A DNA stretch of 64,000 nucleotides from Saprospira grandis str. Lewin (GTDB lineage: Bacteria; Bacteroidota; Bacteroidia; Chitinophagales; Saprospiraceae), in assembly GCF_000250635.1 (NCBI RefSeq), contig NC_016940.1:1-64000 (forward strand), in the 5' to 3' direction. Positions 1,703-61,072 of this stretch are shown piece by piece (position 1 is the stretch's first letter; every line of letters begins with the position of its first letter). The translations under genes and the position numbers were made by a program. Below the pieces are notes generated by a model. It had not been told where the DNA came from, ran no database searches, and worked only from the letters and a program-made list of their open reading frames with translations.

Positions 1703-1851
1703 TCCTACAGGCCCCGAAGGGGCCGCAGGCTGAGCTGCAGGAGCAGGGCCGCCAAAGGCGGCAGACCAAAGCGGCTTTGCCGCTGCAGGGCCGAGCAGAC
1801 CTGCGAGCTGCGGACTGGAGCGACCCGACCGCAGGTAGGGGCAGCCCCAAA
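1703..1851 (+). repeat. Dispersed modular hairpin element, copy 1 (class I core)
   Basis: This is a GC-rich intergenic element read here towards its CCCCAAAA edge. It holds CCTACAGG at the left, several short self-complementary stems, the class I core GCCGAGCAGACCTGCGAGC, and ends in GGGGCAGCCCC plus an A-run. The A-run forms the T-tract of the glyA terminator on the other strand. Confidence 0.9.
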
Positions 1852-1884
1852 AAAAACGCCCTAAAAGTCAAAGCTTCTAGGGCG
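1849..1884 (-). terminator. Terminator of glyA
   Basis: On the minus strand the stem CGCCCTA/TAGGGCG is followed by a run of eight T. That run is also the edge of the neighbouring dispersed element. Confidence 0.8.
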
Positions 1885-1908
1885 ATATAAAATTAAGCTA
1901 TTTATTGC

Positions 1909-3216
1909 TTATAGTGGGGCCACTTCTACCCCTTCCTCATCCGAGGCAAAGAGCGGATAATTGGCCATATAGGCATTGATTTCGGCTTTGACGGCAGCAA
2001 TTTCTTGAGCATCATCAATATTGCTCAAAATGCGGTCCATCCATTCTACAGTTTTCACACAATCGGCCTCCTTGAAGCCTCGAGTCGTGACGGCGGGGGT
2101 ACCTATACGCATGCCCGAAGTCACCATAGGCGATTCTGTATCAAAGGGCACCATATTTTTATTGACCGTAATATCGGCCAAGATGAGGGTTTCTTCCGCC
2201 TGCTTGCCCGTTACGCCTTTGGGGCGAAGGTCAATCAGCATAAGGTGGTTATCGGTTCCGCCAGAAATGACCTTATAGCCTTTATCGACAAAAGCCTGCG
2301 CCATCGCTTTGGCATTGGCCACCACCTGTTTTTGGTAGGTCTTAAAGCTAGGTTGCAAGGCCTCGTGAAAAGCAACCGCCTTAGCGGCAATCACATGTTC
2401 TAGAGGGCCACCTTGGGTGCCGGGAAAAACGGCAGAGTTGAGAAGCACCGACATCTTTTTGGGATTGCCCGACTTCTTCCAAACCTTACCAAAGGGGTTG
2501 GGAAAATCTTTGCCCATCAAAATCATTCCCCCTCTGGGGCCACGCAAAGTTTTATGCGTCGTGGTGGTCACAATATGACAATAATCCAAAGGATTTTTGA
2601 GCAGGCCAGCGGCAATAACGCCCGCAGGATGCGCCATATCGCACCAAAGGATAGCCCCTACCTCATCGGCAATCTCTCTAAAGCGCTCATACTCCCATTC
2701 TCTAGAATAGGCCGAGGCCCCACAAAGGATAATTTTAGGCTGGTGCTCTTTGGCCTTAGCCGCCACCTTGTCCATATCGATACGGCCCGTGGCTTCTTCT
2801 ACCCCATAAAAAACGGGGTTATAGAGCTGGCCCGAAAAATTGGCCTTAGAACCATGCGTAAGATGACCGCCATGGGCCAAATCAAAACCGAGGATCGTAT
2901 CGCCAGGTTTTACACAAGCCAAATATACGGCCGCATTGGCCTGGGCGCCAGAATGTGGCTGCACATTGACATATTCCGCATTGAAAAGCGCTTTGGCGCG
3001 ATCAATAGCCAATTGTTCAATTTTATCTACGACCTCGCAGCCGCCATAATAGCGCTTTTTGGGATATCCCTCAGCGTACTTATTAGTGAGGCAAGACCCC
3101 ATGGCCTGCATGAGCTGCTGACTAACAATGTTCTCAGAGGCAATCAGTTCGATACCGTTCTGCTGGCGTTCGTGCTCCTCCCGGATCAATGCGGCCACTT
3201 GAAGATCTTTCAACAT
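1909..3216 (-). CDS. glyA: Serine hydroxymethyltransferase
   Basis: This PLP enzyme interconverts serine plus tetrahydrofolate with glycine plus methylene-tetrahydrofolate and is the main cytosolic source of one-carbon units. The 435-aa sequence has the family N-terminus ([12 protein letters not shown] at 21-32, [15 protein letters not shown] at 45-59) and the PLP-lysine motif [14 protein letters not shown] with Lys222. Length is normal (about 415-435). It is convergent with dnaA, and a terminator lies just downstream. A long ORF on the opposite strand (2413-3396) is a shadow caused by codon bias. Confidence 0.97.
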
Positions 3217-3493
3217 AGCTGTTCTCGATTTAAAAAAATAAAATGCGGTTTGTTTGCTGTGACTCTCTTCTCAGTAATTGAGTCGCTTAAAGATAATTTT
3301 CTTGGGCAAACTCGCCAAGGAAAAGACTTTTTTTTTGATCCCTGCCCCCTGCAGCTACTTCAGAGAAATATTGTTTGCTTTGGCCAAAGTCCTTAAAATC
3401 ATTCAAAATTAGCTAGGCTATAAATGAGTTCTAAGAGAAAGTTTTATCTTGTCTGCTAATTTACAGTTAACAAACAGCTAAACAATTATTATT

Positions 3494-4890: not shown

Positions 4891-5020
4891 TTTTTTGGGG
4901 CTGCCCCGCCCTGCGGGCGGGTCGGGCTGTCTCGCAGCTCGCAGGTCTGCTCGGCCCTGCAGCGCTTCGCGCTTTGGTCTGGCCTGCGGCCACTGCTGCC
5001 CATCCCTCAGCCGCTCGTCG
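4891..5020 (-). repeat. Dispersed modular hairpin element, copy 2 (class I)
   Basis: This copy is in reverse orientation. It opens TTTTTTGGGGCTGCCCC, then has a CGCCCTGCGGGCG stem, the class I core, a GGCCTGCGGCC stem and the CATCCCTCAGCC tail. It lies between the dehydrogenase gene and cinA. Confidence 0.9.
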
Positions 5021-6478: not shown

Positions 6479-6688
6479 GGCCACAACAAGCCCTTTAGGG
6501 CGCAGTTCGACGACCAAAGGGAGTAACCGATGTGAAGGGGTGGCCGCAGGCCAGACCAAGCTTTTGAGCAAAGCGAAAAAGAGAAGGGCCGAGCAGACCT
6601 GCGAGCCCCGACAACCAGCCCCTATAGGGGCGCCAGTTCGACGACCATAGGGAGTAACCGCCGCAGCTTTGCTGCGGAGGCCCCAAAG
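6479..6688 (+). repeat. Dispersed modular hairpin element, copy 3 (with class III modules)
   Basis: This long copy carries two class III modules, each an ACAACAAG/ACAACCAG lead, a short CCC...GGG hairpin, a CAGTTCGACGACC block and GGGAGTAACCG. They flank a GGCCGCAGGCCAGACC hairpin and the class I core GCCGAGCAGACCTGCGAGC. It ends GGAGGCCCCAAAG. Confidence 0.85.
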
Positions 6689-10607: not shown

Positions 10608-10770
10608 TTTTTTTTGGGGCCTGCCGCCTTTGGCGGCCGGGCCCTTGCAGGGCTCGCAGGTCTGCTCGGCCCTGCGCCAGCAAGCTGGCTAGGTCTGCCG
10701 CTGCGCGGCCCCCTTGCAGGCCCCTAGGCCAAGTCGCTTCGCTCCTTTGCGGCGGCTTTGCCGCCTGCTA
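10608..10770 (-). repeat. Dispersed modular hairpin element, copy 4 (class I)
   Basis: The TTTTTTTTGGGG edge starts immediately after the permease stop codon. It is followed by a GCCGCCTTTGGCGGC stem, the class I core, a CAGCAAGCTG stem and terminal GGCGGCTTTGCCGCC. It faces copy 5 in inverted orientation across a cluster of small palindromes. Confidence 0.88.
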
Positions 10771-10775
10771 GCTGT

Positions 10776-10969
10776 GGCTGCAGGTTAAAACCAGCAGCCA
10801 ATTTAGGAACAGCACAGCTAGCTCCTCAGCAACAATTGGCCTGCAGCTTGAAAGCCGCAGGACCTGAAAACATAATACCTCCTTTCCATAAACAAAGCAG
10901 GGGCTTTTAAGCCGCTGCGGCAAGAAAGACCAAGGCCCAACAAGAATGGCTGCGGCCTTTAGGCTGCAG
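10776..10969. repeat. Cluster of four small REP-like palindromes
   Basis: Four imperfect palindromes of 20-24 bp lie at 10776-10799, 10840-10861, 10897-10918 and 10950-10969. Each has a GG(T/C)TT...AA(C/G)CC-type centre and different, self-complementary arms. The same style of palindrome recurs at 33.7 kb, 40.4 kb and 42.4 kb. No gene is seen in 10608-11168. Confidence 0.6.
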
Positions 10970-10971
10970 AT

Positions 10972-11129
10972 AGCGGCAAAGCCGCCATGGCCAAAGGCCA
11001 AACGGCCTAGCGATGGTAGGCAGTGCGGCAAAGCCGCAGACCAAGCAAAAACTTGTTTTTTGCGCAGGGCCGAGCGAGCAGCGAGCTGCCGAACGTAGCG
11101 CCCGCCGAAGGCGGGAGGCCCCAAAAAAA
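10972..11129 (+). repeat. Dispersed modular hairpin element, copy 5 (class II)
   Basis: This copy has the GGCCTAGCGATG block, the class II core GCCGAGCGAGCAGCGAGC, then GAACGTAGCGC, a CCCGCCGAAGGCGGG stem and a GGAGGCCCC plus A-run edge. Confidence 0.88.
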
Positions 11130-11696: not shown

Positions 11697-11764
11697 AATT
11701 GTACTGTTAAATATATCTAGCCCCTAACTAAAAATAGGCGCTAGCTGTTCCCCAATTTTTAAGA

Positions 11765-11956
11765 TTAGATTGATGAAAGGCCAAGCTGCATATAAATTTG
11801 AATGCCCAAAATCAGCAAAAGAAGCAAAAAGCAACAAATACTCAATATTTCTATTCTTTTGACTTTTTGCCTCCAATAAACGAGCTGTTTAGCTTGCTGC
11901 TCTTCTTCTGCCAACTTATTTAGATACCATTTTTCAAAACCAGCTTGTTGATGCAC
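11765..11956 (-). CDS. Small predicted membrane protein
   Basis: This 63-aa protein has a charged N-terminal half and one strongly hydrophobic segment (about 37-55, ILSICCFLLLLLILGIQIYM). Its start overlaps the end of the upstream gene by 37 bases, which suggests translational coupling in a three-gene set (12675 down to 11765). The function is unknown. Confidence 0.5.
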   Translation of the reverse strand: MHQQAGFEKWYLNKLAEEEQQAKQLVYWRQKVKRIEILSICCFLLLLLILGIQIYMQLGLSSI

Positions 11957-12186
11957 AAGCGCAGCACTTTTGCTACTAATCCCTGTCTAATCAAATAATT
12001 GAGCTGTTGTTCTATTTTCATAAGTTTCTGAGGACTAGCTTCTTTTGTTTCCTGCCAAGCTTGGTGAGGTGCTAAGTTAACCAATTTAGCAATCTCTTGA
12101 ATAGTTAGTCCCCAAGCTGTTGTAGACGCAATTAGATAGAGCAGCCGATCTAGTTGAAGCAGTTCTTTTTTGTTCAGTTGAAGCAT
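11920..12186 (-). CDS. Hypothetical small protein with a possible helix-turn-helix
   Basis: This 88-aa protein contains a stretch (about 21-45, WGLTIQEIAKLVNLAPHQAW) that reads like a helix-turn-helix of the winged-helix type, followed by a helix and LNYLIRQGLVAKV. It starts 3 bases after the 161-aa gene and overlaps the small membrane protein, consistent with one operon. A regulatory role is a guess from the motif only. Confidence 0.5.
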   Translation of the reverse strand: MLQLNKKELLQLDRLLYLIASTTAWGLTIQEIAKLVNLAPHQAWQETKEASPQKLMKIEQQLNYLIRQGLVAKVLRLCINKLVLKNGI

Positions 12187-12189
12187 AAG

Positions 12190-12675
12190 TCAAGCCTTTA
12201 ATTCAATCAAGAGAGGAATATTATTGTAGGGAATCGTCAGCTCTTCTTTGAGCAGATAAAAAACTTCCCTCCAGCTACTAAAATTATTTAATGCCGCTTT
12301 GGTCTCTGCAATAGTATAGGCTTTGAGACGAACCGGAATGGCCTTTTGCCAAGAAGCGGAAAAAGAAAGACAACAAGCCTTTTCTTCCGTCAAAATAGGC
12401 GCTAAGGCCTCTAAAAAATCAAAAAATGGACAGCTTTCTGTTTTTCCCAAATAGAATCCTAAAAGCTCTTGTACAATTCCCTGAGAAATACCAGCAGCAG
12501 AACTAGGCTTCATAAGCACTCCCAAAGCCTGATAGCCATAATGCTTTTGCAAGAGCGCTAAACCATATTCAGAATTTGTGTTCAGCGACTTGTAATCCCA
12601 GCAAATCTCATAATCCGAGGGTAGAATTCCCTCAACATAAGCTGGCTGATTTGTGCCTATTGCTATAACATCCAT
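12190..12675 (-). CDS. Hypothetical protein
   Basis: I do not recognise this 161-aa protein. It begins MDVIAIGTNQPAYVEGILPSD, lacks a signal peptide and has mixed alpha/beta character. It is the first gene of a tight three-gene cluster with the HTH-like and membrane proteins downstream. The region upstream (12676-12903) shows no gene. Confidence 0.6.
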   Translation of the reverse strand: MDVIAIGTNQPAYVEGILPSDYEICWDYKSLNTNSEYGLALLQKHYGYQALGVLMKPSSAAGISQGIVQELLGFYLGKTESCPFFDFLEALAPILTEEKACCLSFSASWQKAIPVRLKAYTIAETKAALNNFSSWREVFYLLKEELTIPYNNIPLLIELKA

Positions 12676-12903
12676 CTTAAATTTTCTATTTTTTGAGCAA
12701 AGGTTTCCTAATCGGCTTTCTAAACCTTTTCTCTAAATTTAAATTCCTTAATGCTGCATATTTTTTGAGGCCTGCCCTCAGACTTTCTAAGCTTTGCTTT
12801 CAACTATAAGCACTGCTATTTAGACTTACTGGCAAAGTTTGTTGGCCCAAGAATAGCCCTCTCTGACTGTATTCAGTAGGTCTAAAGCAGAGTCGCACAA
12901 ACA

Positions 12904-12931
12904 TAAAAAAAGAGGAGCCGAAGCTCCTCCT
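12904..12931 (-). terminator. Terminator of the EF-hand gene
   Basis: The stem GAGGAGC/GCTCCTC with a short loop is followed on the minus strand by a run of seven T. Confidence 0.8.
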
Positions 12932-12965
12932 CTAAATAGAAAACAAAAATCCCTTTTACCCTATT

Positions 12966-13427
12966 CTAATTTGTTTTCCGTTCTCTTCTTTTGGCCGGTT
13001 TTGGGGCCGCTTTCAGCTCCTCTTGGCTAATAAAGCCGTCTTGGTTGCTGTCAATTGTTGCAAAATTTTCTTTGATGGGACCTTTGGCTTCCGCCTCAGA
13101 AATCTGCCCGTCTTGGTCGGCGTCTAGCTTCTCAAAACGCTTGCCTTTTCCTTTGCGCTTGCCTTTTTTGCCTTGCCCCTTAGGTTTATTTTTTAGTTCT
13201 TCTAGACTAATAAAACCATTTTGGTCGGCATCAATTGTTGCAAAATTCTTTTTGAGGCGACCTTTGGCCTCTGCCTGAGAAATCTGCCCGTCTTGGTTGG
13301 CATCTACTTTTTCAAAGCGCTCTTCTGGAGACAAACGCTCTTTTTTTTCTTTTTGGTCTTGTGCCTGAGCATTCAAAGCAATCAATCCAAAGCCAATTAA
13401 CATCAGTAGGTTTTTCATAAAATTCAT
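12966..13427 (-). CDS. Exported EF-hand calcium-binding protein
   Basis: This 153-aa protein has a signal peptide (to about residue 22, ALNAQAQ) and four canonical EF-hand loops, at 42-53 (DANQDGQISQAE), 66-77, 102-113 and 126-137. They form two nearly identical pairs about 60 residues apart, separated by a Lys/Gly-rich linker (82-97), so the gene arose by internal duplication. It probably binds calcium in the periplasm or outside the cell. The partner is unknown. Another start at Met4 is possible. Confidence 0.85.
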   Translation of the reverse strand: MNFMKNLLMLIGFGLIALNAQAQDQKEKKERLSPEERFEKVDANQDGQISQAEAKGRLKKNFATIDADQNGFISLEELKNKPKGQGKKGKRKGKGKRFEKLDADQDGQISEAEAKGPIKENFATIDSNQDGFISQEELKAAPKPAKRRERKTN

Positions 13428-13497
13428 TTTTTGAGGATAAGATTTGTACCTCAGACGCTACTTCCACAAAAGGGTTTAAGGTCGCTTATTATTTTTA

Positions 13498-13640
13498 TTT
13501 TTTGGGGCTGCCCCGCCCTGCGGGCGGGTCGGGCTATATCGCAGCTCGCAAGCCTGCTCGGCCCTGCGCTTTTTTCGCTTTGCTCAAAAAGCTGGGTCTG
13601 GCCCTTCGGGCCACTGCTTTCTATCCCTCAGCCAGCTCCA
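13498..13640 (-). repeat. Dispersed modular hairpin element, copy 6 (class I)
   Basis: This copy has a TTTTGGGGCTGCCCC edge, a CGCCCTGCGGGCG stem, a class I core variant (GCAAGCCTGCTCGGCCCTGC), a CGCTTTGCTC hairpin, GGCCCTTCGGGCC and the ATCCCTCAGCC tail. It lies upstream of the EF-hand gene. Confidence 0.88.
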
Positions 13641-13678
13641 CCAAAGAGCTAAAGCTGGGCATTCGGCTTCGGCAAGCA

Positions 13679-13707
13679 AAAAAAAGGAGACCGATTTATC
13701 GGTCTCC
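13679..13707 (-). terminator. Terminator of the acyl-CoA dehydrogenase gene
   Basis: The stem GGAGACCGAT/ATCGGTCTCC is followed by a seven-T run on the minus strand. Confidence 0.85.
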
Positions 13708-13743
13708 TTTCTTGGCCCATAAAAGAGCAACTTATAGAGTAGA

Positions 13744-15094: not shown

Positions 15095-15244
15095 GCGTCT
15101 TGCAGGCCCGAAGGGCCGCAGGCTTAGGGATGGATAGCAGTGGCCGAAGGCCAGACCGAGGCGGCAAAGCCGCCGAAGGGCCGAGCAGACCTGCGAGCTG
15201 CGACACAGCCCGGCCCGCCCGCAGGGCGGGCAAGCCCCAAAAAA
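15095..15244 (+). repeat. Dispersed modular hairpin element, copy 7 (class I)
   Basis: Order: GCGTCTTGCAGG, GGCCCGAAGGGCC hairpin, TTAGGGATGGATAGCAGTGG, GGCCGAAGGCCAGACC, a GGCGGCAAAGCCGCC stem, the class I core, a CCCGCCCGCAGGGCGGG stem and the CCCCAAAA edge. It sits 60 bases ahead of proC. Confidence 0.9.
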
Positions 15245-17767: not shown

Positions 17768-18047
17768 GGGGCGTTACTCCTTTCAGTCGTCGAACTGCGC
17801 CCTAAAGGGCTTGTTGTCACTGCGGCTACGCCTTGCGGCGCTACGTTTACTCCCTTTGGTCGTCGAACGGCGAACTAAAGTTCTTGTTGTCGCAGCTCGA
17901 TGTTTTTTTGGGGCCTCCGCTGCGGCTACGCCTTGCGGCGCTACGTTCCGCAGCTCGCTATTCGCTCGGCCCTTCGGCGCTTGCAGCGCCTCGGTCTGGC
18001 CCTACGGGCCACTGCTGCACATCGCTAGGCCGAGGGCCAGCCCCTAG
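17761..18047 (-). repeat. Dispersed modular hairpin elements, copy 8 (two in tandem)
   Basis: Two reverse-oriented units are fused. The first (17761 to about 17905) carries two class III modules (TCGTCGAACTGCG, CCCTAAAGGG and CTTGTTGT). The second starts at TTTTTTTGGGGCCTCC (about 17900) and carries a class II core. They separate nhaD from the AT-rich CARF-nuclease gene. No gene is seen between 17706 and 18118. Confidence 0.85.
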
Positions 18048-20890: not shown

Positions 20891-21191
20891 GCGTCTTGCA
20901 GGCGGCAAAGCCGCCGCAAAGGAGCGCAGCGACTGGCCACAACAAGCCCTTTAGGGCGCAGTTCGACGACCAACGGGAGTAACCGATGTGAAAGGGTGGC
21001 CGAAGGCCAGACCGAGCTTTTGAGCAAAGCGAAAAAGCGACAACAAGGCTGAAAGCCGCAGTTCGATGACCGAAGGGAATAACGGCCGAGCAGAACTGCG
21101 AGCCCTGGAACGACAACAAGCCCTTTAGGGCGTCTTCGACGACCAAAGGGAGTAACCGCAGCAAGGCGTAGCCGCAGCTGAGGCCCCAAAA
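20891..21191 (+). repeat. Dispersed modular hairpin element, copy 9 (three class III modules)
   Basis: This 300-bp mosaic has a GCGTCTTGCAGG lead, a GGCGGCAAAGCCGCC stem, three ACAACAAG...TTCGA(C/T)GACC...GGGA(G/A)TAAC modules, a GGCCGAAGGCCAGACC hairpin, a degenerate core (GCCGAGCAGAACTGCGAGC) and a GAGGCCCCAAAA edge. It fills the gap between fbaB and trkA. Confidence 0.85.
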
Positions 21192-24851: not shown

Positions 24852-25001
24852 GCGTCTAGAGGCGGCGAAGCCGCCGGCTGAGGGATGGATAGCAGTGGCC
24901 CTTAGGGCCAGACCCAAGCCGCCGCAGGCGGCTGCAGGGCCGAGCAGACCTGCGAGCTGCGGCACAGCCCGACCCGGCCAACGGCCGGGGCAGCCCCAAA
25001 A
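24852..25001 (+). repeat. Dispersed modular hairpin element, copy 11 (class I)
   Basis: Order: GCGTCTAGAGG, GGCGGCGAAGCCGCC, GGCTGAGGGATGGATAGCAGTGG in pieces, a GGCCCTTAGGGCC hairpin, a GCCGCCGCAGGCGGC stem, the class I core, a CCGGCCAACGGCCGG stem and a CCCCAAAA edge. Confidence 0.9.
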
Positions 25002-29870: not shown

Positions 29871-30058
29871 TTTTTTTGGGGCCCGCGGCCGCCCTTATTT
29901 TTTGGGCGGCCGCCGCTAGGCTTCGCAGCTCGCAGGTCTGCTCGGCCCTGCGCGGGCTTCGCCCGCTGGGTCTGGCCTACGGCCACGGCTGCGCAGCGCT
30001 GGGCCATTGGCCCTTCGGGCCAGGGCTTCGCCCAGTAATGGTAAAAGCGGCCCAGCTC
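29871..30058 (-). repeat. Dispersed modular hairpin element, copy 12 (class I)
   Basis: TTTTTTTGGGGCCCGCGGCCGCC leads into a long stem with a TTATTTTTT loop, then the class I core, a GCGGGCTTCGCCCGC hairpin, GGCCTACGGCC, a GCTGCGCAGCGC stem and further GGCC stems. No gene is seen in 29787-30143. Confidence 0.88.
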
Positions 30059-31279: not shown

Positions 31280-31429
31280 GCGTCCTACAGGCCCGAAGGG
31301 CCGCAGGCTGAGGGATGGATAGCAGTGGCGCGAAGCGCCAGACCCAGCCGCCAAAGGCGGCGCAGGGCCGAGCAGACCTGCGAGCTGCGACACAGCCCGA
31401 CCCGCCCGCAGGGCGGGGCAGCCCCAAAA
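31280..31429 (+). repeat. Dispersed modular hairpin element, copy 13 (class I, near consensus)
   Basis: This is a near-consensus copy: GCGTCCTACAGG, GGCCCGAAGGGCC, GGCTGAGGGATGG, ATAGCAGTGG, GGCGCGAAGCGCCAGACC, a GCCGCCAAAGGCGGC stem, the class I core, ACACAGCCCGACCC, a GCCCGCAGGGC stem and CCCCAAAA. Its edge lies 3 bases from the stop codon of the ABC-2 permease on the other strand. Confidence 0.92.
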
Positions 31430-33708: not shown

Positions 33709-34003
33709 TTTTTTGGGGCTGCCTTTTCGGCGGGTTAAAACCCACCGCAAGGGTAGTATCGCTTTGCGATAATATAGAAATGAGGGTTAAAACCCTCATA
33801 AAATTGTGGTCGGGTCGGGCTGGGTACTCCCGTTGGTCGTCGAACTGCTCCCCTTTTGGGGCTGCCCCTCCCTTCGGTCGGGTCGGGCTGTGTCGCAGCT
33901 CGCAGGCCTGCTCGGCCCATCGCTTTTTCGCTTTGCTCAAAAGCTCGGTCTGGCCCTGCGGGCCACTGCTATCCATCCCTCAGCCGGTCGTCGCTTCGCT
34001 CCT
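33709..34003 (-). repeat. Dispersed modular hairpin element, copy 14 (interrupted)
   Basis: The TTTTGGGGCTGCC edge at 33711 is interrupted by two small palindromes (33729-33746 and 33781-33798, GGGTTAAAACCC type). A class III fragment (TCGTCGAACTGC) follows. A second TTTTGGGGCTGCC edge near 33856 then begins a complete class I copy ending in CATCCCTCAGCC. One element therefore seems to have been inserted into another. Confidence 0.8.
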
Positions 34004-36085: not shown

Positions 36086-36243
36086 GCGGTCTACAGGCCC
36101 GAAGGGCCGCAGGCTGAGGGATGGAAAGGGGGGCGGCGCAGCCGCAGACCCAGCTTTTGAGCGCAGCGAAAAAGCGCAGGGCCGAGCAGACCTGCGAGCC
36201 CCGACACAGCCCGACCCGCCCAGCGGGCGGGGCAGCCCCAAAA
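36086..36243 (+). repeat. Dispersed modular hairpin element, copy 15 (class I)
   Basis: GCGGTCTACAGG, GGCCCGAAGGGCC, GGCTGAGGGATGG, a GGCGGCGCAGCCGC stem, AGCTTTTGAGCGCAGCG, the class I core, a CCCGCCCAGCGGGCGGG stem and CCCCAAAA. It lies between two divergent genes, 28 bases ahead of the next start. Confidence 0.9.
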
Positions 36244-40124: not shown

Positions 40125-40328
40125 GGGGGCCTGCCGCCTGCGGCGGCCGGGCTGTGTCAGGGCTCGCAGGTCTGCTCGGCCCTGCGCAAAATTCGCTACG
40201 CTCATTTTGCTTGGTCTGCGGCTTCGCCGCCCCCTTATCCATCCCTAGGCCGTTTGGCCTTCGGCCACCCCTAGGGCCAAGGCCCTAGGCTATTGAAAAA
40301 ATTGTCATCCCCTCATTCGAGGGGATTT
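40117..40328 (-). repeat. Dispersed modular hairpin element, copy 16; left copy of a 203-bp direct repeat
   Basis: Positions 40126-40328 match 42113-42315 with one visible mismatch (T/G in GGCT[T/G]CGCC). The match covers a class I element, a GGCCTTCGGCC tail, a CCTAGGGCCAAGGCCCTAGG stem and a CATCCCCTCATTCGAGGGGAT hairpin-like end, written here as CCCCTC/GAGGGG. Confidence 0.92.
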
Positions 40329-40445: not shown

Positions 40446-40499
40446 GCCCAAAACTGCCCAGCCGCCGAAGAAAAAAGACAGCTGAGCAGCCATAACAAG

Positions 40500-40901
40500 C
40501 TATTTACCATCAGTCCAAACCATTAGCTTATGTGCATGAATTGTTTTGTCTAACAATTTAATTTTCTGACTAGGCTTAACATTAGGTTTAAACTTTTTAT
40601 TTAGCTCGTGAACCTCATTATAAAATGAGATCAATGTTCCATCCTGTTTTTTTATTGTCAAGGAGTCTATATTTATTCCTTCATAAGCTATTGATATATA
40701 CATCCCTGCTCTATAAAGTTCTCTCAAATTCAAAGATAGTTTTTTCTCTAAAACCTCTTCTATATCCAACATTTCAATCACAACATACTCGGAATGGTTA
40801 AATACGACCTTGTAGTCTTTTCGAACTATAGGTCCTCGAAGAGACATACATGAAACCATACAGAAAAACATCATTAGGCTAATAGCTCTTGCTCGATTCA
40901 T
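40500..40901 (-). CDS. Putative lipoprotein
   Basis: This 133-aa protein has a lipoprotein-type signal (SLMMFFCMVSC, Cys18) and an unrecognised body. It is AT-rich compared with the housekeeping genes and begins 3 bases after the propeller-like lipoprotein gene, so the two form an operon. Confidence 0.65.
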   Translation of the reverse strand: MNRARAISLMMFFCMVSCMSLRGPIVRKDYKVVFNHSEYVVIEMLDIEEVLEKKLSLNLRELYRAGMYISIAYEGINIDSLTIKKQDGTLISFYNEVHELNKKFKPNVKPSQKIKLLDKTIHAHKLMVWTDGK

Positions 40902-40904
40902 CTC

Positions 40905-42071: not shown

Positions 42072-42105
42072 CTAATTTTAATAAAGACAAAGGTCCAAAC
42101 AACTG

Positions 42106-42315
42106 CTTTTTTGGGGCCTGCCGCCTGCGGCGGCCGGGCTGTGTCAGGGCTCGCAGGTCTGCTCGGCCCTGCGCAAAATTCGCTACGCTCATTTTGCTTG
42201 GTCTGCGGCTGCGCCGCCCCCTTATCCATCCCTAGGCCGTTTGGCCTTCGGCCACCCCTAGGGCCAAGGCCCTAGGCTATTGAAAAAATTGTCATCCCCT
42301 CATTCGAGGGGATTT
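42106..42315 (-). repeat. Dispersed modular hairpin element, copy 17; right copy of a 203-bp direct repeat
   Basis: This copy is nearly identical to copy 16 over 42113-42315. Such identity is far higher than between any other two elements in the window and points to recent duplication or gene conversion. Confidence 0.92.
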
Positions 42316-42442: not shown

Positions 42443-42586
42443 GCAGGCCCCTAGGGCCACAGGCCTAGCGATGTGCAGGGGTGGCCAAAGGCCAGACCAA
42501 GCGGGCGCAGCCCGCGCAGGGCCGAGCGAACAGCGAGCCCCGAAACGTAGCGCCGCAAGGCGAAGCCGCAGCGGAGGCCCCAAAAA
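42443..42586 (+). repeat. Dispersed modular hairpin element, copy 18 (class II)
   Basis: GCAGGCCCCTAGGGCC, GGCCTAGCGATGTGCAGG, GGCCAAAGGCCAGACC, a GCGGGCGCAGCCCGC stem, the class II core GCCGAGCGAACAGCGAGC, GAAACGTAGCGC, a CGCCGCAAGGCG stem and GGAGGCCCCAAAA. The gap 42072-42651 holds only these repeats. Confidence 0.88.
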
Positions 42587-43142: not shown

Positions 43143-43216
43143 GACAAGCCCTTTAGAGCATCTTCAACGACCGAAGGAAGTAACCGTAGCGCCCGCCGAA
43201 GGCGGGAGGCCCCAAA
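43143..43216 (+). repeat. Degenerate fragment of a dispersed element, copy 19 (class III)
   Basis: A decayed class III module (GACAAGCCCTTTAGAGC, TTCAACGACCGAAGGAAGTA) is joined to GTAGCGCCCGCCGAAGGCGG and AGGCCCCAAA. The core is missing. Confidence 0.75.
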
Positions 43217-45310: not shown

Positions 45311-45464
45311 TGGTCCAGAGGAGCGAAGCGACTGGCTGAGGGATGGATAGCAGTGGCCGAAGGCCAGACCGAGCTTTTGAGCAAAGCGAAAAAGCGATGG
45401 GCCGAGCAGACCTGCGAGCTGCGACACAGCCCGACCCGAGCCAAAGGCGAGGGGCAGCCCCAAA
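45311..45464 (+). repeat. Dispersed modular hairpin element, copy 20 (class I)
   Basis: TGGTCCAGAGGAGCGAAGCG, CTGAGGGATGG, GGCCGAAGGCCAGACC, AGCTTTTGAGCAAAGCG, the class I core, a CGAGCCAAAGGCGAG stem (imperfect) and CCCCAAA. It ends 26 bases before the serine hydrolase start. Confidence 0.88.
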
Positions 45465-48578: not shown

Positions 48579-48731
48579 TTTTTTGGGGCTTGCCGCCTTT
48601 GGCGGCCGCTCCCCTTGCAGCTCGCAGGTCTGCTCGGCCCTGCGGCGCTTTCAGCGCCTTGGTCTGCCGCCCGAAGGGCGGCACTGCGCCGGGCAGCTAA
48701 GCCTGCGGCGGCTTCGCCGCCTGCAAAACGC
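48579..48731 (-). repeat. Dispersed modular hairpin element, copy 21 (class I)
   Basis: TTTTTTGGGGCTTGCC starts 12 bases after the glpK stop. A GCCGCCTTTGGCGGC stem, the class I core, a GGCGCTTTCAGCGCC hairpin, a GCCGCCCGAAGGGCGGC hairpin and a terminal GGCGGCTTCGCCGCC follow. Confidence 0.88.
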
Positions 48732-50223: not shown

Positions 50224-50357
50224 GGCGCTAGCGCAATAGGCCTAGCGATGTGCAGCAGTGGCCGAAGGCCAGACCCAGGCGGCAAAGCCGCCGCAGGGCC
50301 GAGCGAACAGCGAGCTGCGAAACGTAGCGCCCGCCGAAGGCGGGAGGCCCCAAAAAA
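50224..50357 (+). repeat. Dispersed modular hairpin element, copy 22 (class II)
   Basis: GGCGCTAGCGC, AGGCCTAGCGATGTGCAGC, GGCCGAAGGCCAGACC, a GGCGGCAAAGCCGCC stem, the class II core, GAAACGTAGCGC, CCCGCCGAAGGCGGG and AGGCCCC plus A-run. It lies between divergent genes. Confidence 0.9.
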
Positions 50358-53867: not shown

Positions 53868-54029
53868 TTTTTGGGGCTTGCCCGCCCTGCGGGCGGGCCG
53901 GGCTGTTCAGGGGCTCGCAAGCCTGCTCGGCCCTGCAGTTTTTTTCGCTTCGCTTCAAAAAACTTGGGTCTGCGGCTGCGCCGCCCCCCTTTCCATCCCT
54001 AAGCCGGCGGCTGCGCCGCCTCTAGGTCC
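53868..54029 (-). repeat. Dispersed modular hairpin element, copy 23 (class I)
   Basis: TTTTTGGGGCTTGCC, a CCCGCCCTGCGGGCGGG stem, a class I core variant, a GCGGCTGCGCCGC hairpin and a GGCGGCTGCGCCGCC end. It faces copy 24 in inverted orientation about 75 bases away. Confidence 0.88.
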
Positions 54030-54105: not shown

Positions 54106-54262
54106 GCGTTTCTACAGGCGGCGAAGCCGCCGCAGGCCCAGCGCTGCGCAGCGGTGGCCGCAGGCCAGACCAAAGCCGCCTTTGGCGGCTGAAGGGCCGA
54201 GCGAATAGCGAGCCGCGCAGCATAGCGGCGGCCAGCTTGCTGGCCGCGGGCCCCAAAAAAAA
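54106..54262 (+). repeat. Dispersed modular hairpin element, copy 24 (class II core, third edge type)
   Basis: GCGTTTCTACAGG, GGCGGCGAAGCCGCC, a GGCCGCAGGCCAGACC hairpin, GCCGCCTTTGGCGGC and a class II core (GCCGAGCGAATAGCGAGC). The right edge is GGCCAGCTTGCTGGCC followed by GCGGGCCCC and an A-run. This right half reappears in the joint at 55292-55333. Confidence 0.88.
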
Positions 54263-54290
54263 GGACCAAAACACAAAAGTGCTTGGTCCT
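54254..54290 (-). terminator. Terminator of PorT-like copy 1
   Basis: On the minus strand the stem AGGACCAA/TTGGTCCT is followed by eight T, which are the edge of dispersed element copy 24. Confidence 0.85.
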
Positions 54291-54324
54291 AAAAGATAAA
54301 CTCTTTATTTATTGTGACAGCAGT

Positions 54325-55119
54325 TTATTCTCCGCCACCAATAGTATAGGTCAAACCAACAGTAAGTCCACCCATTACGTTGTAAGCCGTGCCGCGAGTT
54401 CTTGAGTAATCATAGTCGGGAAAAGCAGAAGGGTTGGCACTGAAAGGGCCAGAAACATCTTTTCCAGCAGCATAAGAGTCTTGCCCTTCGGGGTTGGTCA
54501 ATGAGCTAGAAAGGTGGAAAAGCACCAAAATTTTCATATTTTCATCTACGTTGATAGCTCCACCCATTTCTAGCGTGGCGCCAAAAACAACATCATTGTA
54601 GATTTTATAGTTTTCGCAAAATCTTTTTTCTATCCGAGTCATGTCAATATCTTCACGATCTATATGAAAAACTGCACCACTATTTTCTTCATAGTTATAA
54701 ACGGCCTTGCTCAGAAAATCTAGGTGAGGGCCAAAACGGAAATAAGAAGTGAAAGAGCCTTCTGTGCTTCCGTTAAATTTCAGCAAAACGGGGACACGGA
54801 CATAAGTCAATTTACGAGAGTATACATCCATCTCGTCCTTGTTGCTTGAAGAGGCTTTATTGATATAATTTTGGCCCTGTTGAGACAGGTTAAGGCCCAA
54901 TTGTAGACCCATACCTTCTGTGAAGTTGATGCCTAGATGAGCTCCAGCATTGTAGCCAAAAGTGGCTTGTAGGTCCATTTCATCGCCTTGGGCAAAATCT
55001 TCATCATTGATGATCCAGCTAGTGGCAGGCGTGAAAGTGACGCCAAATTCTAGGTCTTTTTGGGCAAAACCAAACTGTGCAGCCATTAGAAAAAGAGCTA
55101 GTAAACTTAGGTTACGCAT
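54325..55119 (-). CDS. PorT-like outer-membrane beta-barrel protein, copy 1
   Basis: This 264-aa predicted outer-membrane barrel has a signal peptide (MRNLSLLALFLMAAQFGFAQ) followed by alternating strands as in PorT/OmpW-like small barrels. It is almost identical to copy 2, differing at a KRFCENYK/KRSCGNYK site. The frame is open 26 codons further upstream, but MRNLS is the natural start. The -7 box has lost its G (TAATTTTA), so expression may be lower. The function is unknown; similar barrels are secretion or transport accessories. Confidence 0.85.
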   Translation of the reverse strand: MRNLSLLALFLMAAQFGFAQKDLEFGVTFTPATSWIINDEDFAQGDEMDLQATFGYNAGAHLGINFTEGMGLQLGLNLSQQGQNYINKASSSNKDEMDVYSRKLTYVRVPVLLKFNGSTEGSFTSYFRFGPHLDFLSKAVYNYEENSGAVFHIDREDIDMTRIEKRFCENYKIYNDVVFGATLEMGGAINVDENMKILVLFHLSSSLTNPEGQDSYAAGKDVSGPFSANPSAFPDYDYSRTRGTAYNVMGGLTVGLTYTIGGGE

Positions 55120-55161
55120 TGTTTTTCTTGGTTTTAAGGTGATTAAATATGTTGTGTGCGA

Positions 55162-55169
55162 TAAAATTA
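55162..55169 (-). promoter_or_regulatory. Altered -7 box of PorT-like copy 1
   Basis: The minus-strand sequence is TAATTTTA where copies 2 and 3 have TAATTTTG. The consensus G is lost. Confidence 0.5.
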
Positions 55170-55291
55170 CAAGTATTTTGGATAGAACTGCTATCAAAAA
55201 TATTTTCTGTCGCTGCTTTTTAGACGCTGCAGAGGGGCATAAGTTGGAAAAGCTTTAATTTCTCCCTCTAACTTCCTTTATATTTCTTATG

Positions 55292-55333
55292 TTTTGGGGC
55301 CCGCGGCCAGCTTGCTGGCCGCGGGCCCCAAAA
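55292..55333. repeat. Compact palindromic joint between copies 1 and 2
   Basis: A 42-bp near-perfect palindrome has TTTTGGGGCCCGCGGCC on the left and the mirror on the right, with centre AGCTTGCT. The left flank equals that of dispersed element copy 25 (59961) and the right half equals the end of copy 24 (54262). Confidence 0.88.
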
Positions 55334-55365
55334 AAAAGGACCAAAACACAAAAGTGCTTGGTCCT
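55329..55365 (-). terminator. Terminator of PorT-like copy 2
   Basis: Identical to the copy 1 terminator: AGGACCAA/TTGGTCCT, then a T-run shared with the palindromic joint. Confidence 0.85.
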
Positions 55366-55399
55366 AAAAGATAAACTCTTTATTTATTGTGACAGCAGT

Positions 55400-56194
55400 T
55401 TATTCTCCGCCACCAATAGTATAGGTCAAACCAACAGTAAGTCCACCCATTACGTTATAAGCCGTGCCGCGAGTTCTTGAGTAATCATAGTCGGGAAAAG
55501 CAGAAGGGTTGGCACTGAAAGGGCCAGAAACATCTTTTCCAGCAGCATAAGAGTCTTGCCCTTCGGGGTTGGTCAATGAGCTAGAAAGGTGGAAAAGCAC
55601 CAAAATTTTCATATTTTCATCTACGTTGATAGCTCCACCCATTTCTAGCGTGGCGCCAAAAACAACATCATTGTAGATTTTATAGTTTCCGCAAGATCTT
55701 TTTTCTATCCGAGTCATGTCAATATCTTCACGATCTATATGAAAAACTGCACCACTATTTTCTTCATAGTTATAAACGGCCTTGCTCAAAAAATCTAGGT
55801 GAGGGCCAAAACGGAAATAAGAAGTGAAAGAGCCTTCAGTGCTTCCATTAAATTTTAGCAAAACGGGAACACGGACATAAGTCAATTTACGAGAGTATAC
55901 ATCCATCTCGTCCTTGTTGCTTGAAGAGGCTTTATTGATGTAATTTTGGCCCTGTTGAGACAGGTTAAGGCCCAATTGTAGACCCATACCTTCTGTGAAG
56001 TTGATGCCTAGATGAGCTCCAGCATTGTAGCCAAAAGTGGCTTGTAGGTCCATTTCATCGCCTTGGGCAAAATCTTCATCATTGATGATCCAGCTAGTGG
56101 CAGGCGTGAAAGTGACGCCAAATTCTAGGTCTTTTTGGGCAAAACCAAACTGTGCAGCCATTAGAAAAAGAGCTAGTAAACTTAGGTTACGCAT
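55400..56194 (-). CDS. PorT-like outer-membrane beta-barrel protein, copy 2
   Basis: This 264-aa barrel protein has the same signal peptide and strands as copy 1 and differs at only a couple of residues, so the duplication is recent or is kept uniform by gene conversion. It keeps an intact -7 box (TAATTTTG) 43 bases ahead of its start. Confidence 0.85.
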   Translation of the reverse strand: MRNLSLLALFLMAAQFGFAQKDLEFGVTFTPATSWIINDEDFAQGDEMDLQATFGYNAGAHLGINFTEGMGLQLGLNLSQQGQNYINKASSSNKDEMDVYSRKLTYVRVPVLLKFNGSTEGSFTSYFRFGPHLDFLSKAVYNYEENSGAVFHIDREDIDMTRIEKRSCGNYKIYNDVVFGATLEMGGAINVDENMKILVLFHLSSSLTNPEGQDSYAAGKDVSGPFSANPSAFPDYDYSRTRGTAYNVMGGLTVGLTYTIGGGE

Positions 56195-56236
56195 TGTTTT
56201 TCTTGGTTTTAAGGTGATTAAATATGTTGTGTGCGG

Positions 56237-56244
56237 CAAAATTA
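56237..56244 (-). promoter_or_regulatory. Probable -7 box of PorT-like copy 2
   Basis: TAATTTTG on the minus strand exactly matches TAnnTTTG. A convincing -33 element was not found. Confidence 0.55.
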
Positions 56245-56366
56245 CAAGTATTTTGGATAGAACTGCTATCAAAAATATTTTCTGTCGCTGCTTTTTAGAC
56301 GCTGCAGAGGGGCATAAGTTGGAAAAGCTTTAATTTCTCCCTCTAACTTCCTTTATATTTCTTATG

Positions 56367-56419
56367 TTTTGGGGCCCGCGGCCAGCTCGGCAAAGCCGAG
56401 CTGGCCGCGGGCCCCAAAA
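56367..56419. repeat. Compact palindromic joint between copies 2 and 3
   Basis: A 53-bp palindrome has the same TTTTGGGGCCCGCGGCC arms and centre AGCTCGGCAAAGCCGAGCT. Element copy 25 has the same stem but with loop TTT instead of AAA, so the hairpin tip is inverted relative to the shared left flank. Confidence 0.88.
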
Positions 56420-56451
56420 AAAAGGACCAAAACACAAAAGTGCTTGGTCCT
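56414..56451 (-). terminator. Terminator of PorT-like copy 3
   Basis: Same stem and T-run as for copies 1 and 2. Confidence 0.85.
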
Positions 56452-56485
56452 AAAAGATAAACTCTTTATTTATTGTGACAGCAGT

Positions 56486-57271
56486 TTATTCTCCGCCGCC
56501 AATAGTATAGGTCAGACCAACAGTAAGTCCACCCATTACGTTGTAAGCCGTGCCGCGAGAAGCAGAACCTGCATCATCGGGGAAGGCAGAAGGGTTGGTC
56601 AATGAAACCAATGGACTAGCATTATAAGAGTCTTCGCCTTCGGGGTTGCTCAATGAACCAGAAAGGTGGAAAAGTACCAAAATTTTCATGTTTTCATCAA
56701 CATTGATGGCTCCACCCATTTCTAGCGTGGCGCCAAAAACAACATCATTATAGATTTTGTAGTTTCCACCAGTAGGGTTTTCTACCTGAGTCAAATCAAT
56801 ATCTTCACGGTCTACACGGAAAATAGAGCCACTATTTTCTTCATAGTTATAAACGGCCTTGCTCAGAAAATCTAGGTGAGGGCCAAAACGGAAATAAGAA
56901 GTGAAAGAGCCTTCTGTGCTTCCATTAAATTTTAGCAAAACGGGAACACGGACATAAGTCAATTTACGAGAGTATACATCCATCTCGTCCTTGTTGCTTG
57001 AAGAGGCTTTATTGATGTAATTTTGGCCTTGTTGAGAAAGGTTTAGCCCAACTTGAAGGCCCATACCTTCTGTGAAATTGATGCCTAGATGAGCTCCAGC
57101 ATTGTAGCCAAAAGTGGCTTGTAGATCCATTTCATCGCCCTGAGCAAAATCTTCATCGTTAATGATCCAGCTAGTGGCAGGCGTGAAAGTGACGCCAAAT
57201 TCTAGGCCTTTTTGGGCAAAACCAAACTGTGCAGCCATTAGAAAAAGAGCTAGTAAACTTAGGTTACGCAT
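56486..57271 (-). CDS. PorT-like outer-membrane beta-barrel protein, copy 3
   Basis: This 261-aa member of the triplet is the most diverged. It has KGLEFG for KDLEFG, and two loops differ (around IDLTQVENPTGGNYK and EDSYNASPLVSLTNPSAF). The changes concentrate in predicted surface loops while strands are kept, which suggests diversifying change of exposed parts. It has an intact -7 box and is divergent from the DUF5686 gene. Confidence 0.85.
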   Translation of the reverse strand: MRNLSLLALFLMAAQFGFAQKGLEFGVTFTPATSWIINDEDFAQGDEMDLQATFGYNAGAHLGINFTEGMGLQVGLNLSQQGQNYINKASSSNKDEMDVYSRKLTYVRVPVLLKFNGSTEGSFTSYFRFGPHLDFLSKAVYNYEENSGSIFRVDREDIDLTQVENPTGGNYKIYNDVVFGATLEMGGAINVDENMKILVLFHLSGSLSNPEGEDSYNASPLVSLTNPSAFPDDAGSASRGTAYNVMGGLTVGLTYTIGGGE

Positions 57272-57313
57272 TGTTTTTCTTGGTGTTAAGGTGATTAAAT
57301 ATGTTGTGTGCGC

Positions 57314-57321
57314 CAAAATTA
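57314..57321 (-). promoter_or_regulatory. Probable -7 box of PorT-like copy 3
   Basis: TAATTTTG on the minus strand fits TAnnTTTG, at the same distance from the gene as in copy 2. Confidence 0.55.
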
Positions 57322-57453
57322 CAAATATTTTGGATAGAACTGCTATCAAAAATAATTTCTGTCGCTGCTTTTTAGACGCTACAGGGGGGCATAAGTTGGA
57401 AAAGCTTTATATTTTGAGGGCTATAGATTGCTCCAACTCCCTAAATCAAGATT

Positions 57454-59960: not shown

Positions 59961-60119
59961 TTTTGGGGCCCGCGGCCAGCTCGGCTTTGCCGAGCTGGCC
60001 GCCGCTATGCTGCGGGGCTCGCAGGTCTGCTCGGCCCTGCAGCCGCCTTTGGCGGCTTGGGTCTGGCCTGCGGCCCCCCCTCCGCAGCGCTGGGCCTGCG
60101 GCGGCTTCGCCGCCTGCTA
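59961..60119 (-). repeat. Dispersed modular hairpin element, copy 25 (class I core, third edge type)
   Basis: The TTTTGGGGCCCGCGGCC edge leads into an AGCTCGGCTTTGCCGAGCT hairpin, the class I core, GCCGCCTTTGGCGGC, GGCCTGCGGCC, a CGCAGCG stem and GGCGGCTTCGCCGCC. It lies 20 bases after the DUF5686 stop. Confidence 0.88.
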
Positions 60120-60209
60120 GATCTAGCTAGTTTTTGCCCTGGGCCAAAGAAGGAGCTATGCAAACGGCAAAGCTTGCTTTTCTGAATATTTTGTTAAATT
60201 CATTTATAA

Positions 60210-60803
60210 ATGAACTTATACAAAAAGCTGGATAATGACCTTTTTAGCATCATTGACCATGCTCCAGATATCATTGACCATGCCCCAGACATCATTGACC
60301 ATACCCCAGACATCATTGACCATACCCCAGACATCATTGACCATGCCCCAGACATCATTGACCATGCTCCAGACATCATTGACCATACCCCAGACATCAT
60401 TGACCATACCCCAGACATCATTGACCATACCTCAGACATCATTGACCATACCTCAGACATCATTGACCATACCTCAGACATCATTGACCATACCTCAGAC
60501 ATCATTGACCATACCTCAGACATCATTGACCATACCTCAGACATCATTGACCATACCTCAGACATCATTGACCATACCTCAGACATCATTGACCATACCT
60601 CAGACATCATTGACCATACCTCAGACATCATTGACCATACCTCAGACATCATTGACCATACCTCAGACATCATTGACCATACCTCAGACATCATTGACCA
60701 TGCCTCAGACATCATTGACCATGCTCCAGACATCATTGACCATGCCCAAAGGCCCTCTTTAGAGAGCTGTCTGAAAAAGCTACAGGGCCAGAGCATCCTT
60801 TAA
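60210..60803 (+). CDS. Doubtful repeat-protein ORF (heptapeptide repeats)
   Basis: This open frame (197 aa) begins MNLYKKLDNDLFS, has 23 full heptapeptides of the form IIDH(T/A)(S/P)D and ends RPSLESCLKKLQGQSIL. Because the 21-bp unit has no stop in several frames, one other plus frame and a minus frame are also open for a similar length. Coding potential is therefore unproven. The plus frame has a unique start and tail, and its repeats are acidic and regular. Confidence 0.25.
   Translation: MNLYKKLDNDLFSIIDHAPDIIDHAPDIIDHTPDIIDHTPDIIDHAPDIIDHAPDIIDHTPDIIDHTPDIIDHTSDIIDHTSDIIDHTSDIIDHTSDIIDHTSDIIDHTSDIIDHTSDIIDHTSDIIDHTSDIIDHTSDIIDHTSDIIDHTSDIIDHTSDIIDHASDIIDHAPDIIDHAQRPSLESCLKKLQGQSIL
60248..60748. 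repeat. Minisatellite of about 24 units of 21 bp
   Basis: About 24 direct repeats of 21 bp (unit GACATCATTGACCAT followed by a variable six-base block ACCTCA, ACCCCA, GCCCCA or GCTCCA) run for 501 bases without spacers. The first eight units alternate in pairs (G-type, A-type), the next 13 all carry the ACCTCA block, and the last ones return to G-type. Confidence 0.95.
60746..60781 (-). repeat. 36-bp repeat shared with 6782-6817
   Basis: The reverse complement matches 6782-6817 at 34 of 36 positions. It contains an AGACAG(C/T)(C/T)CTCT stretch and directly abuts the 21-bp array. Confidence 0.6.
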
Positions 60804-60908
60804 CAACTAAAAAGAAAACTAAATTTGCGTTTATAAACTAAAGTTACTACTTTTGAATAAATACAAACTAAAAGCGCTAAGGCCAGCCCTTAAATTTGGT
60901 CCAATTGG

Positions 60909-61072
60909 GCGTCCTACAGGCGGCGAAGCCGCCGCAAAGGCGCGCAGCGCCGCGGCTGAGGGATGGACAGCAGTGGCCGAAGGCCAGACCAAGGCGCTGA
61001 AAGCGCCGCAGGGCCGAGCGAATAGCGAGCTGCGAAACAGCCCGACCCAGCCGTAGGCTGGGGCAGCCCCAG
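60909..61072 (+). repeat. Dispersed modular hairpin element, copy 26 (hybrid of classes I and II)
   Basis: GGCGTCCTACAGG, GGCGGCGAAGCCGCC, a GCGCGCAGCGC stem, GGCTGAGGGATGG, GGCCGAAGGCCAGACC, GGCGCTGAAAGCGCC, then the class II core (GCCGAGCGAATAGCGAGC) joined to the class I right end (ACAGCCCGACCC, CCAGCCGTAGGCTGG, GGGGCAGCCCC). No gene is seen in 60804-61284. Confidence 0.88.

Follow-up and report, generated by a model that had tools for sequence, protein, structure and literature searches.

A dispersed, structured intergenic repeat of alternating orientation in Saprospira grandis and other Saprospiraceae

The first 64,000 nucleotides (nt) of Saprospira grandis str. Lewin contig NC_016940.1, here called the window (source genome G000; 4,345,237 + 54,948 bases), carry a recurrent, hairpin-rich element between their genes. 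Its core, GCCGAGCAGACCTGCGAGC, matched the window 18 times with ≤3 mismatches, compared to 0 matches expected from shuffles, and a profile made from the genome's own copies recovered 24 copies of 93 to 134 nt spanning positions 1742 to 61071, 13 in forward and 11 in reverse orientation (Table 1). The recurrent element of the original prediction is thus real, but the profile gave 24 copies rather than about 27 and one copy per 2.7 kb rather than per 2.4 kb. In the whole of G000, the core alone was found 896 times with ≤2 mismatches (0 in a reversed control), and a looser core pattern was found 677 times in forward and 671 times in reverse orientation (control, 171). A profile scan of 1.3 Mb of G000 yielded 417 copies, extrapolating to some 1,411 per genome; for repetitive extragenic palindromic sequences (REPs) of Escherichia coli, PMC12306157 gives about 700. 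Copies account for 3.7% of a 620-kb sample of G000 and for 4.0% of a 520-kb sample of the related genome G002; the sample sets of G000 used here and below overlap one another. Only 4 of 284 copies (profile matches at an expect value [E] of ≤1e-10 in 864 kb of G000) lay inside an open reading frame (ORF) called by a simple gene caller, and almost all copies are therefore intergenic and, as had been predicted, present in both orientations. Their density was under-dispersed, with a mean of 6.15 copies per 20 kb and a variance of 1.68. The repeat family is far larger than first stated, and beyond that first description it has two enclosing helices (P1 and P0), strand-specific loops, about 1,400 copies, members in other genera and an alternation of orientation along the chromosome.

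One strand of each copy, which is one half of the pairs described below, can fold into a conserved, nested multi-helix structure of about 120 nt that is kept by covariation. In the 5'-to-3' direction of its own strand, a copy begins with P0, followed by P1, which encloses hairpin H1, the motif GACC, hairpin H2 and the core (GGGCCGAGC-loop-GCGAGC), and then hairpin H3 between P1 and P0. The proposed closing helix P0 pairs GGCTG, GGCCT or GGCCC with CAGCC, AGGCC or GGGCC directly before the CCCAAAA end and was assigned by reading of the sequence and by RNA folds. The inner four pairs of P1 form between the bases preceding H1 and an arm made up of the final C of GCGAGC plus the three bases after it. 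P1 was parsed in 201 of the 284 copies (83 unparsed; 200 usable for pair counts), and the inner types were GCAG/CTGC (106 copies), GGGG/CCCC (41), AGGG/CCCT (16), GTGG/CCAC (7), GCGG/CCGC (5), GCCG/CGGC (5) and others that were rarer, with arms that mostly matched or were one pair off. Pairs 2, 3 and 4, whose arms lie about 60 nt apart, were Watson-Crick in 198, 199 and 185 of the 200 copies (shuffled means, 96, 96 and 150), in agreement with the predicted selection on a folded strand. In an alignment of 60 copies, 87.3% of the cells were paired, compared to 71.3% after shuffling and 28 to 41% when the alignment was slid, and both sides had changed in 232 cells (83 when shuffled); the number of further pair types was not above that in shuffles. 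H2 was represented by 142 distinct segments among 227 parsed copies of the 284, with a mean paired fraction of 0.58 (0.33 in letter shuffles), which bears out the shared blocks and the variable but self-complementary stems noted before. Less favorable to the fold was RNA folding of six copies, which gave z scores of -3.3 to -0.7 and went clearly beyond shuffles in three. A second hairpin module (ACAAG..CG..TTCGACGACC..GGGAGTAACCG) was seen beside or inside elements at window positions 6487-6664, 17820-17893, 20943-21162, 24231-24304 and 43144-43190; at locus L127 it sits as an insertion at the 5' helix of a copy that otherwise is similar.

Table 1. Element copies and their parts in the window (positions count from the first nucleotide of the window)
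Feature	Position	Strand	Basis
Element copy	1742..1849	+	Profile match, E 2e-15
Element copy	4896..5012	-	Profile match, E 2e-18
Element copy, second hairpin module (TTCGACGACC type) adjoining	6528..6620	+	Profile match
Element copy, left half of tight inverted pair	10616..10730	-	Profile match, spacer comparison
Noncoding spacer, 273 bp, between pair halves; 93-95% alike to spacers at three other loci	10731..11003		Spacer comparison
Element copy, right half of tight inverted pair	11004..11123	+	Profile match, spacer comparison
Element copy	13503..13633	-	Profile match
Element copy	15121..15239	+	Profile match
Element copy	17909..18031	-	Profile match
Element copy, enlarged by second hairpin module	20984..21112	+	Profile match
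Element copy, opens gene block conserved in G002 (similarity 24979-30006)	24876..24998	+	Profile match, synteny
Element copy, closes gene block opened by 24876..24998	29890..30005	-	Profile match, synteny
Element copy, anatomical type	31306..31426	+	Profile match, RNA fold
P0 5' arm GGCTG, pairs with 31419-31423 (CAGCC)	31306..31310	+	RNA fold; read from sequence
P1 inner 5' arm GCAG, pairs with 31385-31388 (CTGC)	31322..31325	+	Covariation
Hairpin H1, loop GAA	31326..31340	+	RNA fold, alignment
Hairpin H2, slot exchanged between copies	31347..31361	+	H2 parse, alignment, orthologue comparison
Conserved core with hairpin GAGC-loop-GCGA	31365..31385	+	Core search
Hairpin H3, loop GCA	31401..31417	+	RNA fold
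Element copy	33857..33985	-	Profile match
Element copy	36112..36240	+	Profile match
Element copy in 209-bp stretch 99% identical to that at 42107; both flank ORF 40905-42065	40127..40251	-	Profile match, repeat comparison
Element copy, second of direct pair with 40127..40251	42113..42238	-	Profile match, repeat comparison
Element copy	42462..42582	+	Profile match
Element copy	45334..45462	+	Profile match
Element copy	48600..48702	-	Profile match
Element copy	50239..50351	+	Profile match
Element copy, left half of close inverted pair	53872..54005	-	Profile match, spacer comparison
Element copy, right half of close inverted pair	54135..54239	+	Profile match, spacer comparison
Element copy	59995..60096	-	Profile match
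Element copy	60954..61071	+	Profile match

Most of the loops are strand specific: GAA was counted 173 times and TTC once, GCA 145 times and TGC never, GTA 17 times and TAC never, and GTCA 26 times and TGAC never. The excess of G-T (73) over A-C (23) among modelled pairs points to the same polarity. Among 226 H1 loops, 203 were GNA (185) or GNNA (18; GTCA, GTTA and GCTA), and none was a GNRA tetraloop. PMC4686876 describes DNA mini-hairpins as extraordinarily stable if they combine a GNA or GNNA loop with two or more G-C pairs. Since the loops are mostly strand specific and fit this rule for DNA mini-hairpins, one DNA strand appears to fold; the folded single strand is probably DNA, with RNA as the possible alternative. 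Two observations sit less well with this assignment: AAA (55) and TTT (29) loops were far less asymmetric, and H3 loops had the GNRA sequence GCAA in 27 copies. If the element were instead a structured RNA, be it cis-regulatory, terminator-like or an independent small RNA, the strong covariation in a defined strand, the z scores of RNA folding and the preference for G-T over A-C among modelled pairs (73 and 23, from 43:20 and 30:3) would be accounted for. However, convergent and divergent intergenic regions carried the element equally often (46 of 95 and 42 of 86), which makes a regulatory RNA less likely, and there was no bias to gene starts or ends. Moreover, the fold is followed by runs of A, not of T, as read from the sequence, the H1 loops fit the DNA rule and not RNA tetraloops, and no Rfam family matched in the window at the gathering score; nothing credible was found at E ≤5 for one copy, in line with the earlier statement that no named family fits. 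We therefore consider a structured RNA family quite unlikely, and a terminator, a promoter leader and a riboswitch are each disfavored by the gene configuration around the copies. The original prediction had offered a mobile element or a structured RNA: the likeness to a mobile element stands, the regulatory RNA has lost ground.

Compared stretches of G000 and the related genome G001 are 87 to 96% identical, and a copy in the same orientation was present at 63 of 64 sites located in G001 by both flanks; in G002, the orientation agreed at 33 of 35 such sites. In 56 parsed orthologous pairs of G000 and G001, H2 was the same in 13, showed slight changes in 16 and had been replaced in 27, and the core differed in 27; in 30 pairs of G000 and G002, H2 was identical in 4, slightly changed in 5 and replaced in 21, and the core differed in 26. 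Stem differences are thus largely exchanges of whole hairpins and not step-by-step compensation, and compensatory change in the stems, the key argument of the original prediction, needs correction; P1 provides the better evidence for covariation. The exchange of modules is presumably gene conversion between copies by way of the short conserved blocks; if so, the wholesale exchange among dispersed copies makes gene conversion within a genome visible. Exchange of whole hairpins would also be expected if the complementarity of the stems were a mutational by-product of palindrome-perfecting template switches and spreading modules, with no selection on the fold. But P1 pairs across about 60 nt and is kept among copies with different H2, and genera whose stems differ retain the fold, so that we give this explanation next to no credence. 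Two copies, at loci L117 and L127, are split by IS-like insertions of about 1.5 kb (11711-13268 and 12217-13773, respectively; about 1.56 kb each); both segments match a single segment of G001 with 98% identity, and the segment is probably an insertion sequence (IS) that entered the element.

In the following, '>>>' and '<<<' denote the element in forward and reverse orientation; its inner side is the 5' side, and its outer side is the opposite end. Neighboring copies were opposite in orientation in 335 of 382 pairs in 1.3 Mb of G000 and in 214 of 243 pairs in 864 kb (shuffled mean, 139; standard deviation, 7; maximum, 159). The same held for 152 of 173 pairs in 520 kb of G002 (shuffled, 86.9; standard deviation, 6.4) and for 32 of 38 in 120 kb of G001. 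In G124, from another genus, a hand count gave 16 of 19 (16 of 20 with one weak match), including 8 of 8 on one contig with gaps of up to 14 kb. Alternation goes by rank and not by distance: at 3.5 to 6 kb, first neighbors were opposite in 52 cases and the same in 12, whereas second neighbors were opposite in 18 and the same in 90. Of 161 '>>> genes <<<' intervals, only 1 was shorter than 1200 bp, whereas of 174 '<<< >>>' intervals, 36 were shorter than 400 bp. The outer CCCCAAAA end lies near a gene, be it the start or the stop (median distances from the profile match, 50 and 6 bp), and the inner end lies farther away (137 to 178 bp). No rule of gene direction emerged (77, 75, 55 and 51 of 258), a dependence of orientation on the replichore was not borne out by stretches from the suspected region, and the ends of '>>> genes <<<' blocks were not matched to each other, neighbors being about as alike as random copies (mean scores, 61.1 and 63.5 versus 61.3). 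To our knowledge, a comparable alternating-bracket order has been described for no bacterial chromosome, and it is unusual. Copies exchange sequence and a 209-bp direct duplication is present, so one could argue that alternation reflects nothing but purifying selection, acting on direct repeats because recombination between them would delete genes. However, second neighbors of the same orientation are tolerated at distances at which first neighbors are not, on which ground avoidance driven by distance was rejected, alternation in G124 persists over 14 kb, and the near-absence of close '>>> <<<' pairs is left unexplained. Thus, this explanation is very improbable.

The tight pairs suggest a unit '<<< spacer >>>', that is, two halves of about 120 nt with their 5' sides facing each other and the GGCCCCAAAA ends pointing outward. 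Comparison of the spacers of 53 '<<< >>>' pairs with halves 30 to 700 bp apart revealed similarity in 254 of 1378 spacer pairs, in 34 of them over >60% of the shorter spacer. At four loci, the spacers of the 273-bp class were 93 to 97% alike, and in an alignment of these and a fifth locus, similarity began at TTTTTTGGGGCC, with left outer flanks that were unrelated by eye. Where the halves were >700 bp apart, the inner flanks matched the spacer library in 114 of 238 cases and the outer flanks in 39 (E ≤1e-3). In G063, of another genus, four pairs had only 9 to 21 bp between their halves, some of these halves being weak matches. We judge it somewhat better than an even chance that these are a Saprospiraceae family of dispersed inverted-pair DNA elements with a logic like that of REP doublets forming hairpins (REPINs) but a new architecture, which spread as pairs. 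A putative enzyme would have recognized the folded single-stranded DNA, and the pair would have spread as one unit in an ancestor common to these species. If whole pairs were inserted between genes of the host, alternation would arise automatically and the outer ends would come to stand beside genes; such insertion would account for the alternation by rank, for the scarcity of short '>>> <<<' intervals and for the outer ends close to host genes. Host or acquired genes would later have come to lie between the halves, in part by homologous recombination at elements, as around 40127-42238: G001 has no similarity between 40251 and 44374, around ORF 40905-42065 and its direct copies, and the 209-bp copies flanking this ORF (99% identical) look like one such event by homologous recombination. 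At present, the copies behave like a static population, homogenized and reshuffled by gene conversion.

Several results weigh against a spread as pairs. The right halves at the five aligned loci were mosaic, with an ordinary end in three of five, so that only the left boundary was clean. Pairs >700 bp apart showed no association of types (34 of 121 of the same type versus 32.6 expected), so that a descent of their halves from one unit is conjectural. Alternation in G063 was weak (27 of 46 by hand count, including one match at E 0.56), and this genome has one close pair in the opposite arrangement (L251, 15294/15443). Housekeeping-like genes (CinA, acyl-CoA dehydrogenase and DeoC) lie between halves. 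No clean empty site was found in 210 overlapping site comparisons with both flanks located (67 + 64 with G001 and 44 + 35 with G002); the target held a copy in 205 and retained 86 to 215 bp in the remaining 5, of which the one inspected was a degenerate copy lacking the core. No transposition was thus seen, and gene conversion among old pairs is another way in which the spacers could have spread. A REP-associated tyrosine transposase (RAYT) flanked by the element, as had been proposed, was not found: the single Y1_Tnp gene of G000 has no element within 1.5 kb, and Y1_Tnp occurred in 26 of 32 carrier genomes and 161 of 216 non-carriers, i.e., without association. A RAYT as parent enzyme was thus rejected, as was a reverse transcriptase, which had no match in G124 and G063, both rich in copies. 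No cognate enzyme was linked to the element in searches for Y1_Tnp and RVT_1, and none of 20 window proteins scanned with Pfam was a transposase.

If genes arrived between the halves, synteny would be expected to break on the inner (5') side. When multicopy flanks were masked, the inner side had lost homology in 16 cases and the outer side in 1 at an offset of 100 (four overlapping comparisons). The result was less clear at an offset of 300 (16 and 4), and the unmasked test leaned the opposite way because inner flanks contain repeats. In syntenic zones, homology covered 88% of the bases in blocks and 62% of those in inner gaps; counted by interval, the difference was small (14 of the 16 blocks and 11 of the 15 gaps were ≥70% covered). 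All of 10 block genes but 5 of 10 inner genes had a Pfam match, in a non-random sample of window genes chosen by eye whose inner set includes 40905-42065, which lies between copies of the same orientation.

Of the ends of synteny blocks between G000 and G002, 14 of 36 in G000 and 19 of 36 in G002 lay no more than 60 bp from an element, compared to 7.4% at random, and by hand count these ends opened at '>>>' or closed at '<<<' in 14 of 14 and 14 of 19 cases, respectively; block 386537-390994 is inverted as a whole. The '>>>'-to-'<<<' blocks were also more regular in length (mean, 3558 bp; coefficient of variation, 0.38) than the inner gaps (1346 bp; 0.79). Taken together with the under-dispersed density and the conserved position and orientation in G001 and G002, these data would fit chromosome-organizing sites, where the element, folded or duplex, serves as a polar binding site for a protein of the host and selection keeps '>>> genes <<<' delimiting blocks of about 3.5 kb, as supercoil or loop domains or as protected recombination blocks. 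Yet insertion of pairs by itself, without any function, yields both the alternation and the scarcity of short blocks, G063 alternates only weakly, and no copy was detected with strict filters in 216 of 248 genomes of the family. We therefore regard selected bracket sites as unlikely, although a function at the level of the chromosome, bracketing conserved gene blocks, is possible. It is likewise unlikely, perhaps a shade more so, that the chromosome is ordered by paired, polar brackets folding as single strands, with blocks of about 3.5 kb kept, inverted or exchanged as units and a dedicated protein reading the DNA. Either way, the alternating order offers a natural system in which to ask whether repeats merely record insertion or organize a bacterial chromosome.

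A covariance-model search of Saprospiraceae genomes, suggested with the original prediction, found the element in 32 of 248 genomes and 21 of 112 genera at E ≤1e-4 (model R1), a lower bound, since ≤14 candidates were scored per genome under strict filters. Both observations on which the prediction had staked its claim, covariation (in P1 and in the alignment) and copies elsewhere, were thus made. A second model, R2, matched 4 of 296 genomes across the phylum, G000 included; the only match outside the family was a single copy in G556, with P0 and the core recognizable by eye. In 30 copies from ten other genera, in an alignment that was fitted to the structure model, 93.6% of the cells were paired (72.2% when shuffled) and 22 of 25 pairs had changed on both sides; the stems differ in sequence from those of Saprospira, and the fold is kept. 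An unnamed, high-copy family with a complex fold kept across genera means that the fold can be solved and a binding protein found. Genes beside single copies in G106, G556 and G032 belonged, by eye, to no common family; a gene that looks Ku-like by eye (L273, 661-1440) adjoins the copy of G106. An exact match in a metagenome-assembled genome of a gammaproteobacterium (L060) lacked the fold, and G004, of the same genus but with no core matches, was too diverged in gene order to serve as an outgroup. A description of the family was not found in the literature on Saprospira, Saprospiraceae or Bacteroidetes repeats, a search that did not cover the genome paper of strain Lewin, and the word "Saprospira" is absent from the accessible portions of PMC3733652, PMC8266576 and PMC12306157.

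Three other features of the window were noted. A gene-like stretch with about 24 copies of a 21-bp repeat (60143-60872) is located between two halves, and 60150-60812 has no similarity at the orthologous place in G001. Positions 54228-57349 hold three similar tandem units of about 1.07 kb (two 99% alike, the third 71 to 88%), each with an ORF of about 290 amino acids on the minus strand; G001 appears to hold one unit. A gene with a Card1-type CARF and nuclease domain, the type of a CRISPR accessory effector, lies between two halves at 18119-19165.

How does the element compare with known systems? Like the structured RNA families of Rfam, it has a fold supported by covariation, but it matches none of them at the gathering score. 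With miniature inverted-repeat transposable elements (MITEs) it shares short noncoding units and inverted ends (TTTTGGGGCC...GGCCCCAAAA), and terminal inverted repeats of this type were found at the ends of pairs, with right ends that are mosaic; it differs in that the halves of a pair resemble each other in structure rather than in sequence. A cognate transposase (searched among the Y1_Tnp and RVT_1 families) and a target duplication were not found, no clean empty site being at hand for comparison of the latter. Pneumococcal BOX elements are modular, structured and intergenic and occur in both orientations. In this build they are like the element described here, but BOX elements are not known to stand in a paired-bracket order. 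The attC sites of integrons, which are recognized in the form of one folded strand of DNA whose stems vary, lie in one orientation in an array with the integron integrase; the folded strand is similar, whereas the Saprospira copies alternate genome-wide.

The closest likeness is to REPINs and bacterial interspersed mosaic elements (BIMEs), which are also high-copy and extragenic, with an inverted doublet plus spacer as the unit and single-strand polarity. Such doublets with a spacer are present here, and tight pairs occur in another genus (G063) as well. For REPs, heterodimers and DNA inserted between dimer partners are described in PMC3116915 and PMC3733652, and CGTC-tagged REPs are said to lack a dedicated transposase in PMC3733652. 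However, the Saprospira halves are multi-helix folds of about 120 nt and not hairpins of 20 to 50 nt, no GTAG or CGTC tag is common to all copies (GTAG followed the core within 18 nt in 86 of 232 copies, 84 of which belong to a single type; CGTC occurred at any position in 26 of the 232), there is no linked RAYT, and the alternation spans genes and kilobases. The best-supported description is of a Saprospiraceae family of inverted-pair DNA elements that works like REPINs but departs from them in all three defining respects, tag, size and RAYT.

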